Under the pieces are notes generated by a model that was not told the DNA's origin, did not search any database, and was given only the letters and a program-made list of their open reading frames with translations. A stretch of DNA of 64,000 bases from Candidatus Hydrogenedentota bacterium. GTDB taxonomy: Bacteria; Hydrogenedentota; Hydrogenedentia; Hydrogenedentales; JAEUWI01. The stretch's first letter is position 1. Each line of letters opens with the position of its first letter. A program made the position numbers and the translations under genes. The DNA lies in contig JAHBVV010000006.1 of assembly GCA_019637335.1 (NCBI GenBank), positions 194,235-258,234 of the forward strand, given 5' to 3'. This document shows positions 28,208 to 59,051 of this stretch, in pieces.

Positions 28208-28283
28208 TACAGGCACCCGCGAATTCAAGGTGGTTGGAACGCTTTCGCGGCGAAGGTTATTTTTTCGCGGGAGCCAGTCCCCC
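28208..28283. repeat. single unit of the 77-bp repeat
   Basis: CACCCGCGAATTC, then GCTTTCGCGGC and TCGCGGGAGCCAGTCCCCCT, matches the unit that is repeated five times at 45824-46203. It abuts the stop of the following leftward gene. Confidence 0.7.
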
Positions 28284-30746
28284 TTATCTCCATAGTGTCA
28301 GGGTAATGAGGGAAAGTCCGAGCAGGAAGAGGTCGCTGGCGCGCTGGCGGAGGTCCTTGATGCCGGTGGGGCCTTGTGGACAGGCGCAGCCGGGCGCGGG
28401 CGGATTGGCGGCGGCGCGAAGTTCTTCCTGGGAGAGCTGACCGTCGTTGTTGGTGTCGATCTGATTGAACATGGCCGCCGTCAGGTTGCTTGCCGCGGCC
28501 TGGGCCTCGCCGAAGTTCAACAGTCCGTTAGCATCGAAGTCGGCCGTTGCGAAATGGTCCAGCAGTTGCTGCGCGATTTCGGGCAGGGTCTCTCCTTCAC
28601 CTTCACCCTCACCCTCTCCTTCACCTTCACCCTCTCCTTCACCTTCTCCTTCACCCTCTCCCTCACCTTCTCCCTCACCTTCTCCCTCACCCTCTCCTTC
28701 ACCTTCTCCCTCTCCTTCACCTTCTCCCTCTCCTTCCGCTGCCTCCGTGACGGTGATGAAGGCCTCCTTGATTTCGGTGTAGACGCCGAGAATCCCGGTT
28801 ACCACGATGCGGCTGGCGTATTCGCCGGGATTGTTGAAGGTAAAGGTGATGGGGCCTTCGGGGTTTTCCGCGTCAATGCTGCCGCTATTGTCGAAATCCC
28901 ACAGGGCGCCAATCACGTCGCCGGTGGTGGCGTTCTGAAAGGTCACGGTCAGCGGTGCGGCGCCGGCGCGTGGTTCCGCGGTGAAGTCCGGTATCGGGAT
29001 TACGTTTTCGCGGACAGCGGCCTGGAAATCGGCGAAGCCGGCCGCGCCATTGGAAGCGGTCACGGTCGCGCGGACGGTGACGGGGCCGATTGCGGCGGGT
29101 CCTTGCGCCCATATGCCGCCGTCGGTGAAGACGCCATCCCCCGCGACGAGGTCGGGGACTACGCCATTGTCGAAGATTGCGAAATCCGCCGTGGTGAGGC
29201 CCACGACGCCGCCCGGGTCCACGCCGTTCACCGGGCTGTAGATGTACGGGTAGATCCGGGTAATGTCGGATCCGGTCGCGGTGAAGAACCAGGTATCCAC
29301 GATCTGCGCGGTCGCGCGCTCCTGGCGAATGAGGGTAATTCGGGGATCGCCCGTCAGGCCGGTGACCGCGGGGGCGCCATCGCCGAAATCCATGACGAGG
29401 AGGTCTCCGGGAGGGTAGTCCGCGCCATGGCGGATCCCGCCGACGAAGAGCACGCGCTGGCCGTCGGCGGAAATCGCGGATAGCGGGCTGCCCACCGTGA
29501 ACCCGGCGAGGCTCAGCGGGACGACGCCCGAGCCGTCCGCGGCGGCCCACCGGATGGTTGGGTTGCTGCCGCCGCCGATGTCGAATTGATGCGAGGTGGC
29601 TGTCGCGTCGCCGCTCAAGTCTGGATTCGTGGGCCAGCGGCCCGCCCCGGGCACGCCGGGGTCGACCAGGATGGGGTTGTCGATGTCATCGAGCGGGGCC
29701 ACAAGCAGGCCCTGGGGATCCGGCGCGGTCCCGGCCCAGCGGCAGAAGGCGACGGTCGATCCGTCGTCCGAAATGCTCGGACCGCGAAAGCTCATCCCGT
29801 TCAGGTTCGTCAGGACGGACGCGTCGCCCGCGGGGGTCCGGGGGTCTTTTAGCAGCAGGCTTGCGGGGTTGTTGGCCGAGGGGTAATTCCCGCCGACGGG
29901 GATGAGGGCGACGGTCGCGGCGTGGTCGATGGCGAGTACGCCACCGGCGGCGGTGACTTCGACGGCGGTTGGCGCGATGCCGGGGATCTCCTGTAGACGC
30001 GCGGCTTCCTGCATCGGGGTGTAGGCTCCCGAATCGATTTCAACGGCGTAGACCGTGAATCCCGAGGCGGGCGGTGCTTCGGGGTCGGAGGAGCCGCCGT
30101 AGGGGCCGAAGCGGTTAATGAACAGGGCCACCTCACCGTTTCCGGAGAGCGCGAAGTTCTGTCGGGCGGTGAAGAGATTGAGGTCCAGGAGGTTGGTCTC
30201 TCCGTAGGCGGTGTGAGAGATTTGGGAGAGGACATCTTCGGTCATACCCGACGCGCGATCATAGCGGCGGATTGTATCGGAAGGCCTCCCGTAGTCTTTC
30301 TCCCCGATGGCGTAGACGACGCGCGAACCGTCGTCGGAAATGCCGTATGTGGCGTACAGCAGCGGGATGTTGAATACCGGCCCGGAGAACAGTACGACTT
30401 CGCCGGTTCCGTCGGTGCGCATGAGGCGCAGGGTCTGGATCAATTCAGCGTTCTGCTGCGTCCGAAAGACGACCCACTCGCCGTCGCCCGACATGTGGAA
30501 ATCGAGGATGCGGTAATCGTTGGCCACGACATCGCTGATTTGGGTGTAGTGTCCGCTTCGGAGCAGGGGCGCGGTCTCGGCGCTGTAGGCGGGGCCGCAG
30601 ACGAGCGCCAGGAAGAGGAACGCCAGGAGGATCACGAGCAGGCGCACGAGCCAGGGCGCGAGATGCGGGTGTCGCAGGGAAATGGGGAGATGGAAATGGG
30701 GGTGGTGTTCGCGCGTGAAGAAGTGCGCGGCAGGACGGGGCGCCAT
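28284..30746 (-). CDS. EGEG-linker surface protein: TolB-like propeller, PKD, EF-hand pair, C-terminal tail
   Basis: 820 residues. A long N-terminal region leads to a membrane/signal segment (LLVILLAFLFLALVCGPAYS). Next are WD40-like PD40 beta-propeller repeats (e.g. FHMSGDGEWVVFR, GISDDGSRVVYA) and a PKD domain (FTAEPRAGAAPLTVTFQNAT, ALWDFDNSG). An (EG)n spacer of about 50 residues is followed by two EF-hand loops (DFDANGLLNFGEA and DTNNDGQLSQEEL, dockerin-like). The end is a CAC motif, a hydrophobic stretch LFLLGLSLITLTLWR and no more. It is probably exported and held at the surface. ATG at 30746 with GAGGAG upstream. The DNA of the linker is a hexanucleotide repeat (about 28590-28735). Confidence 0.8.
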   Translation of the reverse strand: MAPRPAAHFFTREHHPHFHLPISLRHPHLAPWLVRLLVILLAFLFLALVCGPAYSAETAPLLRSGHYTQISDVVANDYRILDFHMSGDGEWVVFRTQQNAELIQTLRLMRTDGTGEVVLFSGPVFNIPLLYATYGISDDGSRVVYAIGEKDYGRPSDTIRRYDRASGMTEDVLSQISHTAYGETNLLDLNLFTARQNFALSGNGEVALFINRFGPYGGSSDPEAPPASGFTVYAVEIDSGAYTPMQEAARLQEIPGIAPTAVEVTAAGGVLAIDHAATVALIPVGGNYPSANNPASLLLKDPRTPAGDASVLTNLNGMSFRGPSISDDGSTVAFCRWAGTAPDPQGLLVAPLDDIDNPILVDPGVPGAGRWPTNPDLSGDATATSHQFDIGGGSNPTIRWAAADGSGVVPLSLAGFTVGSPLSAISADGQRVLFVGGIRHGADYPPGDLLVMDFGDGAPAVTGLTGDPRITLIRQERATAQIVDTWFFTATGSDITRIYPYIYSPVNGVDPGGVVGLTTADFAIFDNGVVPDLVAGDGVFTDGGIWAQGPAAIGPVTVRATVTASNGAAGFADFQAAVRENVIPIPDFTAEPRAGAAPLTVTFQNATTGDVIGALWDFDNSGSIDAENPEGPITFTFNNPGEYASRIVVTGILGVYTEIKEAFITVTEAAEGEGEGEGEGEGEGEGEGEGEGEGEGEGEGEGEGEGEGEGEGEGEGEGETLPEIAQQLLDHFATADFDANGLLNFGEAQAAASNLTAAMFNQIDTNNDGQLSQEELRAAANPPAPGCACPQGPTGIKDLRQRASDLFLLGLSLITLTLWR

Positions 30747-38722: not shown

Positions 38723-38750
38723 CAGGATGTGTTTTTACTAATGGAGCCGG

Positions 38751-39297
38751 TGCTCCATAGTTGTCTTACGCCTGTGGCGCAAGATGCCGGCGGGCCGTCG
38801 GCGCTCCATAGTGGTCTTACGCCTGTGGCGCAAGATGCCGGCGGGCCGCCGGCGCTCCATAGTGGTCTTGCGCCTGTGGCGCAAGATGCCGGCGGGCCGC
38901 CGGCGCTCCATAGTGGTCTTGCGCCTGTGGCGCAAGTTGCCGGCGGGCCGCCGGCGCTCCATAGTGGTCTTGCGCCTGTGGCGCAAGATGCCGGCGGGCC
39001 GCCGGCGCTCCATAGTTGTCTTACGCCTGTGGCGCAAGATGCCGGCGGGCCGCCGGCGCTCCATAGTGGTCTTACGCCTGTGGCGCAAGATGCCGGCGGG
39101 CCGCCGGCGCTCCATAGTTGTCTTGCGCCTGTGGCGCAAGATGTCGGCGGGCCGCCGGCGCTCGATAGTTGTCTTGCGCCTGTGGCGCAAGATGCCGGCG
39201 GGCCGCCGGCGCTCCATAGTTGTTTTGCGCCGGTGGCGCAATCTGTTGGCGGGCCGCCGGCGCTCCTTAGTTGTCTTGCGCCGGTGGCGCAGTTCAT
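38751..39297. repeat. tandem array of eleven 51-bp units, each with two hairpins
   Basis: The unit begins CTCCATAGT, followed by the palindrome CTTGCGCCTGTGGCGCAAG and the palindrome GCCGGCGGGCCGCCGGC. CTCCATAG recurs every 51 bases from 38753 to 39212, with a CTCCTTAG variant at 39263. Variation concentrates in few positions (GGT/TGT, TTGCG/TTACG), and the last two units are most diverged. All six frames stay open because 51 is divisible by three, so I treat the long ORFs here as spurious. The array ends exactly at the stop of the leftward ceramidase-like gene. Confidence 0.9.
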
Positions 39298-40709
39298 CCC
39301 GCCTGGTCGGGGGTCCAATCCTGTGAGGCCAGGTCGCCGGGGCCCTTGAGGGGGCCGATGGCTCCCTGGAGGCGTCCGACCTGGGTGAGGGATTCGGCGA
39401 GGAGGCGTTCGCCGGTTCCGACGGCGACGTAGGTTGCGTTGGAGGCGCCGTAGCCGCCGATTATGGCGGCCTCTATGGTGGGGAAGTAGATGTGGAAGTC
39501 GTTTGCGTAGCCGCATAGCAGGCTGCAGGGGGCGGTGGCGCGCGCCTTGAAATCGATTTGGAATTGGACGAAGGGCTCGCCTGGGTGGAAGGTCAGGGCG
39601 ATGGTATCTTGCAGCAGGAGCGTGTCGACGGGGAGGGGGAGGCTCTCCCCCAGTCCGGCCATGTATTTCTCGAACATGAGGCCGTAGGCCTCGCGGAGAA
39701 TGGCGGTCTGGGCGGGGTCAGTAAAGTCGTAGCGCAGGCCGGCGTCCACGATGGCGCGCTCGTGCGCGATGCGGTTACGATCCGCCGGCCGCCAATCCAG
39801 GTTTTTCAGCGCGGCGAACACCGCTTCGGCGGCTTTGCGGCCTTCGGCGTGCACGGCTTCTTCCGCGCCTTCCGCCAGCGACATTTTGTCGAAGTAGGGG
39901 TTGATGTCGCCGGCGGCCCCCTGGAGGAAGAGGCAGGGCGCGCCGGTGGCCTCCTGGACTTCGCGCGCCATCACGCCGCACCAGTCCGCGGAGTAGCGGG
40001 TGTTGTCGGACGCGAGGATAACGGGGTGGCAGGCGTAGTGCACGAGGGTGGCCACGGCGTCCCCCGCGAGGGATTCGAAGTGAAGCGCGGTGAGCTCCTG
40101 GTCGAGCGGGCCGGAGGGCAGGCGATCGAGGTTTCGCCAGCGCATCCAGCATTGTCCTTCGCGCACGACGCGCCGGTTGTGGGCGATATCGAGAGGCGCA
40201 CGGCCCACGCCGACGCGAACCGGCTGCAACGCATTGGCCGCGCGCTGGAGCAGATCCACGAGGGCCGATTCCATGCCCTGGTTGTGCGGGAGATCGGGCA
40301 GCTCCATGATCGGGCCGCTGTGGGTGTGGGTGGCGGAGAAGATGACTTCTTCGACACCGAACGCGCGGGCCCGATCGCGCACGCGCTGGCAGATGGGTGG
40401 CATGGGCATGCGCCCGAAATCCATGCTGATGATTGCGATCGCAACGCCGCCTGTTCGAAGGAGCAGCGCACGGGCGAAGAGCGGATCCAGCGTGCCGGTG
40501 CTTATCTGGTCGGGGTTGCTGTATCCCCACATCGGGATGCCCGGGGGCGGGGTCAGGTCCGCGAGCGCCGCGCCAGCTTCGAGTGCGCCGTCATCGTCGG
40601 TGTCCGATTGAATTCGTCGCGGTTCGGCGGAGGCGCGGACGCCCGCAGTGAAAAGACCGGCTCCCGCGGTGGATTGCAGCACGAAGTGGCGTCTGGACAG
40701 GGTGCGCAT
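39294..40709 (-). CDS. Tat-exported neutral ceramidase-like protein
   Basis: 471 residues from the ATG at 40709, with a Tat signal (SRRHFVLQSTAGAGLFTAG) and GGAG 10 bases upstream. The body matches the neutral/alkaline ceramidase-like family: LADLTPPPGIPMWGY at the start, FSATHTHSGP (zinc His pair), YACHPVILAS, LFLQGAAGDINPYF and a late FHPGEPFVQF. Full ceramidases split ceramide into sphingosine and fatty acid. This shorter form is a common relative in planctomycete-like bacteria, with unknown substrate. It is divergent from the MOSC gene with 75 bases between starts. Confidence 0.88.
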   Translation of the reverse strand: MRTLSRRHFVLQSTAGAGLFTAGVRASAEPRRIQSDTDDDGALEAGAALADLTPPPGIPMWGYSNPDQISTGTLDPLFARALLLRTGGVAIAIISMDFGRMPMPPICQRVRDRARAFGVEEVIFSATHTHSGPIMELPDLPHNQGMESALVDLLQRAANALQPVRVGVGRAPLDIAHNRRVVREGQCWMRWRNLDRLPSGPLDQELTALHFESLAGDAVATLVHYACHPVILASDNTRYSADWCGVMAREVQEATGAPCLFLQGAAGDINPYFDKMSLAEGAEEAVHAEGRKAAEAVFAALKNLDWRPADRNRIAHERAIVDAGLRYDFTDPAQTAILREAYGLMFEKYMAGLGESLPLPVDTLLLQDTIALTFHPGEPFVQFQIDFKARATAPCSLLCGYANDFHIYFPTIEAAIIGGYGASNATYVAVGTGERLLAESLTQVGRLQGAIGPLKGPGDLASQDWTPDQAG

Positions 40710-46265: not shown

Positions 46266-48092
46266 TTAGTGGCGGCGACCGACGGCGGAGAGGCCGAGGA
46301 GCGTCACCATGGCCAGGCCCAGCAGGAAGATGTCACCGAGACGCTTCCCGACGGACTTGAAGTTGCACTGGAATCCGCCGCCGCCCTCGCCTTCACCCTC
46401 GCCTTCTCCCTCGCCTTCGCCCTCTCCCTCGCCTTCGCCCTCGCCTTCGCCCTCGCCTTCGCCTTCACCCTCGCCTTCTCCCTCACCTTCACCCTCTCCT
46501 TCACCCTCTCCTTCTCCTTCTCCTTCTCCTTCGCCTTCGCCCTCACCTTCAGCGCCTCCCTCCACGACATCCGCCAATTCAGCTGCCGTGAGGAAACCGT
46601 CGTTGTCCGCATCCATTGCGTCAAACTGCGCCTGGGTCAGGCCGGCAAAAGCGAACGAAGCCTCGGCAAAGCTCAATCGATCGTCGAAATCTACATCCAC
46701 GTCGACGAACAAGGCAATCAAGGTTTCGGCAATAATTGCCAACTCACCCTCTCCTTCACCCTCTCCTTCACCCTCTCCTTCACCCTCTCCTTCACCCTCT
46801 CCTTCACCCTCTCCTTCACCCTCTCCTTCGCCTTCACCTTCGCCCTCACCCTCGCCCTCGCCTTCACCCTCGCCTTCACCCTCGCCTTCACCTTCGCCCT
46901 CGCCTTCACCCTCGCCTTCTCCCTCGCCTTCACCCTCGCCTTCGCCTTCACCTTCACCTTCGCCTTCACCCTCTCCTTCTCCCTCGCCTTCTCCCTCGCC
47001 TTCACCTTCGCCTTCACCTTCGCCTTCACCCTCTCCTTCTCCCTCGCCTTCTCCCTCGCCTTCACCGCCCTCACCCGGGATTGCCGCGTTGGACCAGCCG
47101 AGATCCACGAGGGCGGCGATCTCGAAATCTGCGTATGTGCGAACAGTTTTCGCGGGCGGGAAGGCATGCTCCATCACGGCGCCGCCGACGATGTTTCCGG
47201 TGTCCCAGTGGGAGGTGCTGCTACCCGGTTCGTAGGGGCTTGGCGCGTAGATACCGGGTCGGACGCCGCCCTGATCGTAGGCGACGATGGCGTTGGAGCC
47301 GGCGAAAAAGAGGGCGTTGCTTGTGAACGGGCTGAGGTCTACGCCGAAGACATAGCCCGGGGGATTGCCGGCGAAGAGGTTTGCGCCGGCCTGGGTGGCC
47401 AGTAAGGAATCCCACACGGAGAAGGAGTCGCCGGCCGGATCGGGCTCTCCCATGTTTCCGGTGGTCAGGGAGAGAATGCCGAGTCCGTGTGTAATTTCAT
47501 GGAGCAGGACGGAGGCCAGGTCGAAATTACCGCCGGTGGCGTTCTCCGCGCTGACGTTCCAGTTGTGACCGAAATCAACGGTGACGAACAGCTCCTCCAC
47601 TGTCGCAAAGGGCTTGTTCCCCGTCGTCAGGCGGTGAAAAGCGGTGCCGTTCTGGAAACCGGCGCTTCCGAAAAAGTAGGTGCCGGCGGTGGCGAGGGAC
47701 CCTGCGCCGTCCGTCTGCGATTCTTCGATCACGATGTCGAGGGTACCCGGCTGATTCAGGACATCGGCGACGTAGAGCAGAATTTCCTGCAGACGCGTTC
47801 GGGCATCGGCCCCGATCGCGGGGTCGTCGAAGCCCGCGCCCGTATCGTTGATGATATCGAGGTACCAGATGTTATAGGTGCTGCCGTCGGGGGTCAGCAC
47901 GATGGTCGGCGCGCCGTCGGGCACGTTTTTGGCGGATGCGGACACGGCCTCGATGGAGTGGGCCGTGACTTTGTAGATGGTGTCGGCGGCGCGGGCCGGG
48001 CCCGGTATGATCAGCCCCACCGAGGCGAGCGCCAGGCCGAGGGCGGATGCGCGGGCATACGCGCGGATGCGAGAATTGGCTGTCTTGTACAA
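46266..48092 (-). CDS. EGEG-linker secreted metalloprotease-like protein A
   Basis: 608 residues if started at the TTG at 48092, which has TTGAGGAA 8 bases upstream and is followed by a signal peptide ([21 protein letters not shown]); there is no ATG close by. The catalytic-like domain has [10 protein letters not shown] near residue 197, and further on [16 protein letters not shown], which may give a third His and a Met-turn, as in leishmanolysin-like metzincins. Next is a long (EG)n spacer, an EF-hand pair ([26 protein letters not shown]), a second EG spacer, then [12 protein letters not shown] and the hydrophobic tail [21 protein letters not shown]. Likely exported and surface-anchored protease. 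Confidence 0.75.
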
Positions 48093-48180
48093 GCGTTTAT
48101 TCCTCAATGTTACAGCGGGGCCGTTGGGGCCTCCCCTTCCCTGTTCCGAGTTATGAAAATGGTCACACGATATTGGCGTG

Positions 48181-49374
48181 CTATGGTTTCCGGGCGGCGT
48201 CGCGCCATCCCGCGAGGAGGGCAAGCATACCGGCGAATAATACCACTTCTCCCCCGGCCCGGGAGGCGGGCGACTTGGCGCCAGCCAGGAGCGGGCATCC
48301 GGGTAACTCTCCTTCACCTTCACCTTCACCCTCGCCTTCACCCTCGCCTTCACCCTCGCCTTCCCCTTCCCCTTCGCCCTCGCCTTCGCCTTCGGCGGCT
48401 TCGACGTTGGCGTATCCGATATCGATCAGGGCGCCGGCGTCCACGGGGGCGTATTCACGCTGCATGACGCCGAGGATGATAACATGGGTCATGACGGCGG
48501 GGCCGACGAGATTGTCGATATCCCAGTGGCTGATGCTGCTGCCGGGCTGGTAGGGATTCGGGGCGAAGATGGGCGGGCGGGAGCCCTGGGCGTAGAAGGT
48601 GAAGGCGTTGGGGCCATCGAACCAGATGTCCTCGTTACTGAGGCTTGCCGCGCCGGTCTGGAGGGTGGGGTTGGCGGGATTGCCGAGGACGCGCAGACTG
48701 CTTACTGCGTCGAACAGGAGCGAATCGTAGACGGTGTAGACGCCGCTCGCGATGCTGCTGGAGCCATCGGGTTCGATGAGGGAGGTGAAACCGAGACCGT
48801 GGGTGACTTCGTGGAGGAGCACGGAGAAGAAATCGGCCTCGCCGGGCCCGGGCGGGGCCTCGGTGACGTTCCAGTCGAAGCCCTTGTCCACCTGGACCTG
48901 GATTTCGGGGAAACCGGGAAAGGGCTTTATGCCGGTGTTGAGGCGCTGGAGCGTGCTGCCGGTGTGGAATCCGGGGGCCACGGGATAGAAGGTTCCGGCG
49001 GTTGCGAGGGCTCCGGTTCCGTCGAACTGGCTGGGCTCCATGACGATATCGAGGGTGCGGCCGGGGATATTGATGGTATCGGCGACGTAGGCGAGGACAT
49101 CCTCAAAGCGGGCGCGGAAGGATGGGCCGTCCACGGGGTCGGTGAAGCCCTGGTTCACATCCTCGTAGGTGATGTTGAAAGTGATCCCGCTGGCGATGAA
49201 TTGTTCCGTGGTCCCGCCGCCTTTCGGATAATATTCGGCTCCTTTGGTGGCGTCGAAGAGCTCGTTTTCGCCGTGTGGCCGCACGAGGACGATGGGTTCG
49301 GCGTGGGCTGCGCCGGCGCAGAGGAGCGCGGCGAGCAGGGTAAACAGGCATTGGCTGCGATAGATGGGCTGCAT
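48181..49374 (-). CDS. EGEG-linker secreted metalloprotease-like protein B
   Basis: 397 residues, paralogue of protein A and directly upstream on the same strand. Signal peptide LFTLLAALLCAGAAHA. HEVTHGLGFTSL near residue 187 and SHWDIDNLVGPAVMTH match protein A. It has only a short EG spacer (about 28 residues), no EF-hand pair, then PGCPLLAGAKSP and the hydrophobic tail VVLFAGMLALLAGW ending in basic residues. The tandem arrangement suggests duplication. ATG at 49374. Confidence 0.8.
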   Translation of the reverse strand: MQPIYRSQCLFTLLAALLCAGAAHAEPIVLVRPHGENELFDATKGAEYYPKGGGTTEQFIASGITFNITYEDVNQGFTDPVDGPSFRARFEDVLAYVADTINIPGRTLDIVMEPSQFDGTGALATAGTFYPVAPGFHTGSTLQRLNTGIKPFPGFPEIQVQVDKGFDWNVTEAPPGPGEADFFSVLLHEVTHGLGFTSLIEPDGSSSIASGVYTVYDSLLFDAVSSLRVLGNPANPTLQTGAASLSNEDIWFDGPNAFTFYAQGSRPPIFAPNPYQPGSSISHWDIDNLVGPAVMTHVIILGVMQREYAPVDAGALIDIGYANVEAAEGEGEGEGEGEGEGEGEGEGEGEGEGEGELPGCPLLAGAKSPASRAGGEVVLFAGMLALLAGWRDAARKP

Positions 49375-57540: not shown

Positions 57541-58188
57541 TTATTCGTCGTTCTCAGAATCCAGTGTAAAGCTTTCGTGTTGGAGGAAGTGAACCGTTTC
57601 CGCGGCCACGCGGCGGCTGTTCATGATAAAGGTGTGCGCGAGCGGGAGCACGATGTGGTCCGCCATGCCGTGCAGGCGCGTGCCGGCGACGGTGACGATC
57701 CCGTCGTTTGGTTCGCCGAAACCGATGCCGAGGCCCTTGTTTCCGGCGATTACTCCGAAGGGGACATCGGGCACGGGAAGTGACTCGTAGAAAGCGGCCG
57801 ACGCCAGGCGCTGTCCGGAATCGCCGGCCCAGAGGCGATAGGGCGGGCAGCCACGCAGGCGCCGGGCGAGTTCGGGGGGGTGATTGGGTGGCGCGAGCAT
57901 GACGATCCGGCCGAGTTCGTGTGGGTAGCCGAAGCGGAAGCGGGCGCGGATAACGATATTGCCGAGCGAGTGCCCGACGAGGTGGTAGCGAGGCGTCTTG
58001 ACGTGTTTCACGAGGTAGTCGTGCAGGTCGCCTACGATGGTGTCGAAGCGGTGGAAGGTTGGGGCGTAGGGGAAATTGAAGGTATCGAAGCCCGCGCGGG
58101 CGATCCGGCTCTTGAGGCGCCAGAGGGAGGCCCGGCTGCGGCCCAGCCCATGCAGGAGCACGACGCTTTCTCCCGGCGCGCCGCTCAT
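57541..58188 (-). CDS. alpha/beta hydrolase (lipase-like)
   Basis: 215 residues. It starts VVLLHGLGRSRASLWRL (oxyanion loop HGLG), then the nucleophile elbow GHSLGNI. GEPNDGIVTVAGT and HTFIMNSR probably hold the catalytic Asp and His. The type is the small esterase/lipase family with LHGLGR near the N terminus. No signal peptide. Its ATG at 58188 overlaps the stop of the upstream CPBP gene by 4 bases, so both are co-translated. Confidence 0.88.
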   Translation of the reverse strand: MSGAPGESVVLLHGLGRSRASLWRLKSRIARAGFDTFNFPYAPTFHRFDTIVGDLHDYLVKHVKTPRYHLVGHSLGNIVIRARFRFGYPHELGRIVMLAPPNHPPELARRLRGCPPYRLWAGDSGQRLASAAFYESLPVPDVPFGVIAGNKGLGIGFGEPNDGIVTVAGTRLHGMADHIVLPLAHTFIMNSRRVAAETVHFLQHESFTLDSENDE

Positions 58189-58793
58189 GGCGCGGATCCG
58201 GCGTTCCGGCGCCAGTACACGCCGTAGACGAGTGCGGCGAAGTCGTAGCTGGCGTGGGCGACGGCGGGAACGAGGATGTTGCCGGTGGAGGCGTATAGCG
58301 CGCCAAACGCGGCGCCGAGCAGGGAGGCGAATACGACGTAGGGGATGGAAATGCAGTGCAGCAGACCGAAGAGGAGCGACACGAGGATGAGGGCGAGGGG
58401 CAATCCGATGTACTCCGTGAGGAGGGGCTGGAGTACGCCGCGGAAGAGGGCCTCCTCCCCCACGCCGGCCAGGACGGAAATCAAGAGCAATTCCGGCAGG
58501 GAGGCGTTGCGAAAAAGCGGCATGAGGAGGTCGATATCCTCGCGGAGGCGCGCCGTAATGGGCCAGGGCCCATCGACGGCGAAGAGGGCCAGGGCCAGAA
58601 AGGCGAGACCGGCGAGCAAACCGGCGAGCAGCGCGCCCGGGGCCATGCTGTATCCGGCCCAGAAGGGGCGCTGAAAGAGCCAGCCGGCGGCCAGGGCGGC
58701 GGCGAGCAGCCCGCCCTCGACGTAGAGGGTGATCCTTATGAGGCCCGCGCGTCCCGGCGGCGGGTAAGTTGAAGTGCGCGCCCAACGGCCCAT
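58185..58793 (-). CDS. CPBP family intramembrane metalloprotease
   Basis: 202 residues from the ATG at 58793; the frame is open further up but an upstream start would add non-family residues. Several membrane segments. The CPBP motifs are EEALFRGVLQPLL, then SLLFGLLHCISIPYV and HASYDFAALVYG, giving the two Glu, Arg and two His sites of the Abi/Rce1-type fold. These enzymes cut membrane-associated proteins. It is translationally coupled with the lipase-like gene. Confidence 0.9.
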   Translation of the reverse strand: MGRWARTSTYPPPGRAGLIRITLYVEGGLLAAALAAGWLFQRPFWAGYSMAPGALLAGLLAGLAFLALALFAVDGPWPITARLREDIDLLMPLFRNASLPELLLISVLAGVGEEALFRGVLQPLLTEYIGLPLALILVSLLFGLLHCISIPYVVFASLLGAAFGALYASTGNILVPAVAHASYDFAALVYGVYWRRNAGSAP

Positions 58794-59051
58794 GGGTATC
58801 GGCTGTCTCCTCGGCGGCGCGACGCCGCGGTCATTCCCGGGTGAAAAACTTGATTCCGCAGGCCCCAGCATAGCATAGTTTGTTTGTCTACGTGGCGGGC
58901 GAACGCCATCGATTGCGCGCCCCGGCCCCGCTCGCGGAAGTGCGGGTGGAGCGCCCGCCGGCGCGCCAGGAATTCGGGGCAATCGGGAACCGATCGCGCC
59001 CGCCTTTCAATCTGTCTGCCCCGGCGGGGCAACAACCATAGAAGAACTGTC

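Follow-up and report, generated by a model that had tools for sequence, protein, structure and literature searches.

MYXO-CTERM proteins of Myxococcus are cleaved by MrtX in a Cys-dependent manner (PMC11980579). In the MYXO-CTERM peptide of TraA the Cys is needed for cleavage; the MYXO-CTERM Cys is proposed to be lipidated before the cut is made, and the type II secretion system (T2SS) carries the proteins to the surface (PMC11980579). Every tripartite tail for which that work lists an assigned function is processed. Here we compare with such systems a C-terminal tail found in a genome of Candidatus Hydrogenedentota (7.16 Mb in 55 contigs, 96% complete). The tail is real, occurs across the phylum and has no entry in the libraries searched; we read it as a variant among the Cys-type C-terminal sorting signals already known.

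Tailed proteins of the window

The stretch of DNA analysed, called the window below, is 64,000 nucleotides long and corresponds to C6:194235-258234. It encodes three tailed proteins, named here by their first coordinate. The tails are scored with a profile, A1, made from an alignment of 35 (EG)n-Cys tails from the same genome.

28284..30746, minus strand: secreted protein of 820 aa with signal peptide, PD40-like propeller, PKD domain, (EG)24 spacer, EF-hand pair and Cys-D-TM tail (domain matches to PKD, EF-hand and PD40)
28284..28403, minus strand: C-terminal tail of 28284, PPAPGCACPQGPTGIKDLRQRASDLFLLGLSLITLTLWR (A1, 48.2 bits at C6:222515-222637, that is, window 28281-28403)
28593..28736, minus strand: (EG)24 spacer of 28284
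46266..48353, minus strand: secreted zinc-metalloprotease-like protein with HEITHGLG, two EG spacers, EF-hand pair and tail (NF038122, 31.8 bits, under the cut-off of 80)
46266..46391, minus strand: C-terminal tail of 46266 (A1, 46.8 bits)
46383..46550, minus strand: last spacer of 46266, (EG)28
48181..49374, minus strand: second metalloprotease-like protein with HEVTHGLG, signal peptide, (EG)14 spacer and tail (NF038122, 32.8 bits, cut-off 80)
48181..48318, minus strand: C-terminal tail of 48181, ELPGCPLLAGAKSPASRAGGEVVLFAGMLALLAGWRDAARKP, with Glu replacing Asp (A1, 38.7 bits)
48310..48393, minus strand: (EG)14 spacer of 48181

The sequence-only reading of this DNA had described in these three proteins a common ending of EG spacer, Cys, hydrophobic stretch and basic end. 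All three do carry it, on the minus strand, with two amendments for 28284: the EG spacer is separated from the Cys by an EF-hand pair, so that its end runs (EG)24, EF-hand pair and then PGCACPQGPTGIKDLRQRASDLFLLGLSLITLTLWR, and its claimed basic end is a single Arg only.

The metalloprotease-like proteins 46266 and 48181 are neighbouring paralogues, both tailed (window 46266-49374). The listed ORF of 46266 extends, in a different frame, into the EG tract of 48181, and its true start is probably well within that ORF. Elsewhere in the window, an intergenic array of near-identical repeats (38738-39349) reads CATGARxLWSAGGPPAS in one frame, with several frames open.

Consensus, number and spread of the tail

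Tails were initially collected with a pattern that required a TGY codon after (EG)4, so the Cys in them is partly selected. In the genome, 107 raw matches came from this pattern and none from its reverse, and on reading, the proteins at these matches showed one recurring C-terminal plan. The consensus is P-x-G-C-x(10-16)-[GSA]-D-hydrophobic(~14)-basic end. A1 makes 39 matches at E≤2.5e-4, and five weaker matches also proved on reading to be tails, which brings the genome total to about 44, where a small number had been named in advance as an argument against a shared signal. Nine of the roughly 44 lie outside the A1 training set, some of them on proteins that have no long EG tract. The profile is also specific: on 0.6 Mb of the genome's own DNA, A1 gave 37 matches above 20 bits, 36 of which end no more than 9 residues from a stop codon, and the reversed profile, run as a control on 0.6 Mb, gave none above 20 bits (best 9.2).

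Forty-three tails from this genome were examined individually. Counting from the last Cys, the acidic residue follows after a gap of 10-16 in 40 of the 41 that could be scored; the remaining one has a gap of 3 and is missing the acid at the membrane border. The acidic residue is Asp in 39 tails and Glu in 2, and K or R follows the helix in every tail scored. Two flavours can be told apart: one, often preceded by EF-hands, is of the LGDLFLLGLAL type, and the other is Gly/Ser/Ala-rich and has RRR at its end. By a crude rule, a signal peptide is present in 36 of the 43 carriers, and several of the other 7 have one by eye or are cut by the end of a contig or locus. The same rule is positive for 97 of 292 control ORFs, a set that includes non-genes.

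Several tails contain CxC, CC or GCGCGC, as might be expected if the Cys served to link proteins together by disulphides or to bind metal instead of being lipidated. We regard this as very improbable, as many tails have a single Cys and the distance from Cys to membrane resembles that in the TraA MYXO-CTERM peptide, whose Cys is essential for cleavage (PMC11980579).

Because the first pattern demanded Cys, a less biased test of this residue was needed. In 14 C-terminal matches from the phylum the model had covered nothing but the membrane half, and 12 of these proved to have an upstream Cys. The two Cys-less matches both belong to one family (f11) and show LPASTGAGD and LPTSTGAG ahead of the helix; a third Cys-less tail of that family, matched over positions 9-43, has VPRSAGD in the same place. 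These relatives (L246, L249 and L254) may represent a second type of signal.

In a survey of 68 Hydrogenedentota genomes, A1 tails were found at E≤0.001 in 36. One congener has 31 tails, another genus of the same family 23, and other families up to 16. Cys and Asp are both invariant in an alignment (A3) of 34 tails drawn from several families. A degenerate-peptide scan of the genome collection returned one confirmed match, again in a MAG of Candidatus Hydrogenedentota.

A hydrophobic stretch followed by a positive end is enough for stop-transfer, and the tail could in principle be an unprocessed C-terminal membrane anchor whose likeness from protein to protein reflects descent and the simple composition of anchors. 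The few tails without a border acid and the f11 relatives without Cys fit such an anchor. However, the near-invariant Cys and Asp, held at a fixed spacing in otherwise different proteins, point to recognition by something, and the function-assigned tails listed in PMC11980579 are all processed. A plain anchor is thus improbable in our view.

Comparison with described signals

The tails were compared with the CTERM models of NCBIfam (release 20, June 2026) and Pfam at the cut-offs of those models, and none scored above the cut-off of any of them, LPXTG-type models included. The nearest approaches were as follows. Against JDVT-CTERM (NF033191) the best tail among the matches listed reached 15.1 bits (cut-off 27). 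Only 2 of 35 tails match MYXO-CTERM (TIGR03901) at all (best E 0.0088), with listed scores of 11.6 and 7.8 bits against a cut-off of 20. VPDSG-CTERM (TIGR03778) matches 4 of 35 weakly (best E 0.011), the one listed tail having 9.6 bits against a cut-off of 22, and the Pfam PEP-CTERM model matches 1 of 35 at E 0.75. The GlyGly-CTERM model matches no tail. A literature search for a CTERM signal in Hydrogenedentota likewise found none. Absence from the model libraries is nonetheless no proof that such a signal has gone undescribed. These results agree with the earlier statement that the motif matches no signal that could be named, and they support its reading as an undescribed sorting signal, where "sorting signal" is itself inferred from the architecture.

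Each of the known signals nevertheless shares something with the tail. Like MYXO-CTERM, it places a Cys within a short signature 10-20 residues ahead of the membrane helix and closes with a basic end, and it occurs on dozens of large secreted proteins in a genome that also has a T2SS. Unlike MYXO-CTERM, it is marked by a Gly/Ser-Asp conserved at the membrane border and by an (L/F)LLGLAL core, and its host belongs to Hydrogenedentota, not Myxococcota, with no protease passing the Mrt models. Membership in MYXO-CTERM is ruled out because the model test failed and an Mrt protease was not found. JDVT-CTERM tails also contain Cys and are paired with a CPBP protease (MrtJ), a superfamily present in this genome, but no two-gene neighbourhood of target and MrtJ was seen. 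With PEP-CTERM and VPDSG-CTERM the tail shares its tripartite form, and this genome encodes two exosortases along with one or more true PEP-CTERM proteins; in place of a PEP or VPDSG motif, however, there are the Cys and the border Asp. GlyGly-CTERM, too, is tripartite and, with rhombosortase, belongs to T2SS-dependent surface proteins, whereas both rhomboids of this genome score under the rhombosortase cut-off (TIGR03902, 84 bits; 40.3 and 21.6 bits).

Candidate processing enzymes and secretion

The genome encodes five CPBP proteases, two EpsH-type exosortases and two rhomboids. A co-occurring transpeptidase had been proposed as a check on the sequence-only reading; exosortases and CPBP proteases are indeed present, but none is tied to the tail.

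All five CPBP proteases score under the NCBIfam myxosortase cut-offs, the best values being 23.3 against 100 for Mrt_core, 32.9 against 75 for MrtJ and 42.2 against 130 for MrtS; for MrtX, MrtC and MrtP, none of the five is above the cut-off. One of them is encoded in the window:

58185..58982, minus strand: CPBP (Rce1-like) glutamic intramembrane protease, a weak processing candidate (PF02517, 77.9 bits; MrtJ 32.9 against 75, Mrt_core 21.5 against 100)

Its motifs GEEALFRG, LFGLLH and HASYD are the expected EExxxR, FxxxH and HxxxD, and its close orthologues are found only in the genus and in two other genomes (G034 and G024). Another CPBP protease, encoded on contig C26, has conserved EE, R and His residues and occurs in 58 of the 68 phylum genomes, including 34 of the 36 with tails. 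Within the stretches examined, no tail gene adjoins a CPBP gene.

The C26 gene belongs to an operon of GNAT, CPBP, ABC ATPase, ABC-2 permease and SPASM/GNAT protein (L085:5442-11297, on G000:C26; L176-L195), which is found phylum-wide and in whose SPASM/GNAT protein Pfam recognises no radical SAM domain. By appearance the operon is an undescribed cluster for peptide maturation, RiPP-like, and its layout resembles that of SkfB-C-E-F-type peptide maturation. Because of this resemblance to peptide maturation, the C26 protease is a doubtful sorting enzyme.

Exosortases were considered as well. The EpsH-type enzymes are encoded on C39 (185 bits) and C5 (170 bits). Near the C39 enzyme lies a classic PEP-CTERM protein (L197:16270-17172, on G000:C39) ending in VPEPSTFALLGLGVLGVGLRRKFTA; therefore, this genome has a separate PEP-CTERM system. 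The C5 enzyme is XrtA-like and fused to a glycosyltransferase.

A further family of exosortases (L198-L210, L214 and L216-L244; for example, L208:818-1795) is nearest to XrtH and XrtX and falls below both cut-offs. It has a conserved downstream partner, a membrane protein sometimes encoded in the same open frame.

Processing of the tail by one of these enzymes, XrtH/XrtX-like or EpsH-type, in the manner of PEP-CTERM and with another purpose for the Cys, seems rather unlikely to us, although several observations would fit it. First, the XrtH/XrtX-like family has an invariant C226, R267 and H288 and occurs in 50 of the 68 genomes, among them 31 of the 36 with tails. Second, about 0.6 kb separates an XrtH/XrtX-like gene of one genome (G032) from a tail gene upstream of it, and here the C5 fusion has a tail gene about 0.9 kb away. 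However, neighbours of this kind were found at only 2 of 20 loci, which is not significant, and the C39 enzyme has a PEP-CTERM target of its own. Two tail-rich genomes (G018 and G020) are without any exosortase at the thresholds used, and tails are fewest in family f11, where EpsH exosortases abound. No XrtH/XrtX-like exosortase was found in the present genome, the one with most tails, and this family is accordingly rejected as the tail processor here.

Fisher tests of presence against tails over the 68 genomes gave p 0.04 for the C26 protease, 0.20 for the window CPBP, 0.015 for the XrtH/XrtX-like family and 0.33 for the EpsH type, values of which none is decisive, since shared ancestry is ignored and several candidates were tested. 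Moreover, a broader tail model recovers weak relatives, some of them Cys-less, in genomes counted as tail-less, so that the tail-negative class is not clean and co-occurrence within the phylum cannot decide.

As to secretion, a complete gspC-M operon lies on C31, its GspD scoring 408 bits against a cut-off of 351. Two genes lie upstream of the operon on its own strand, one metalloprotease-like, the other 4102 codons long and ending in the tail. This nearness is suggestive only, because the estimated chance of it is about 6%, given some 44 tails in 7.16 Mb.

Taken together, we somewhat favour the view that the tail is a Hydrogenedentota C-terminal sorting signal acting through Sec export, membrane stop, Cys lipidation, intramembrane cleavage and T2SS delivery to the surface. 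The carriers would leave the cytoplasm by Sec through their N-terminal signal peptides, and the tail would halt them in the inner membrane by its one TM stretch of about 14 residues and its basic cytoplasmic end, with Gly/Ser/Ala-Asp placed at the membrane border, 10-16 residues after the Cys. The Cys would then probably be lipidated, an intramembrane endopeptidase would remove the membrane helix, and the T2SS would take the protein to the cell surface. By analogy, the tail most likely works like MYXO-CTERM, with which it shares the order of parts and a similar distance from Cys to helix, in a genome with both a T2SS and CPBP proteases. A CPBP glutamic protease would be the likeliest class of enzyme, judging from MYXO-CTERM and other Cys-containing signals assigned to such proteases. 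Whether the tail is a further Cys-type signal specific to Hydrogenedentota, with the border Asp and with its own still-unrecognised processing protease and Cys-modifying enzyme, is in our estimate evenly balanced.

If the proposed sorting signal is true, the few tags of this kind now known would be joined by one that marks surface proteins across a phylum, and annotators could label as surface proteins the giant products, dozens in each genome, that now stand as "hypothetical". The tail would also offer the myxosortase field a test case, both for the Cys-modifying enzyme and for the use of CPBP proteases by all Cys-type signals.
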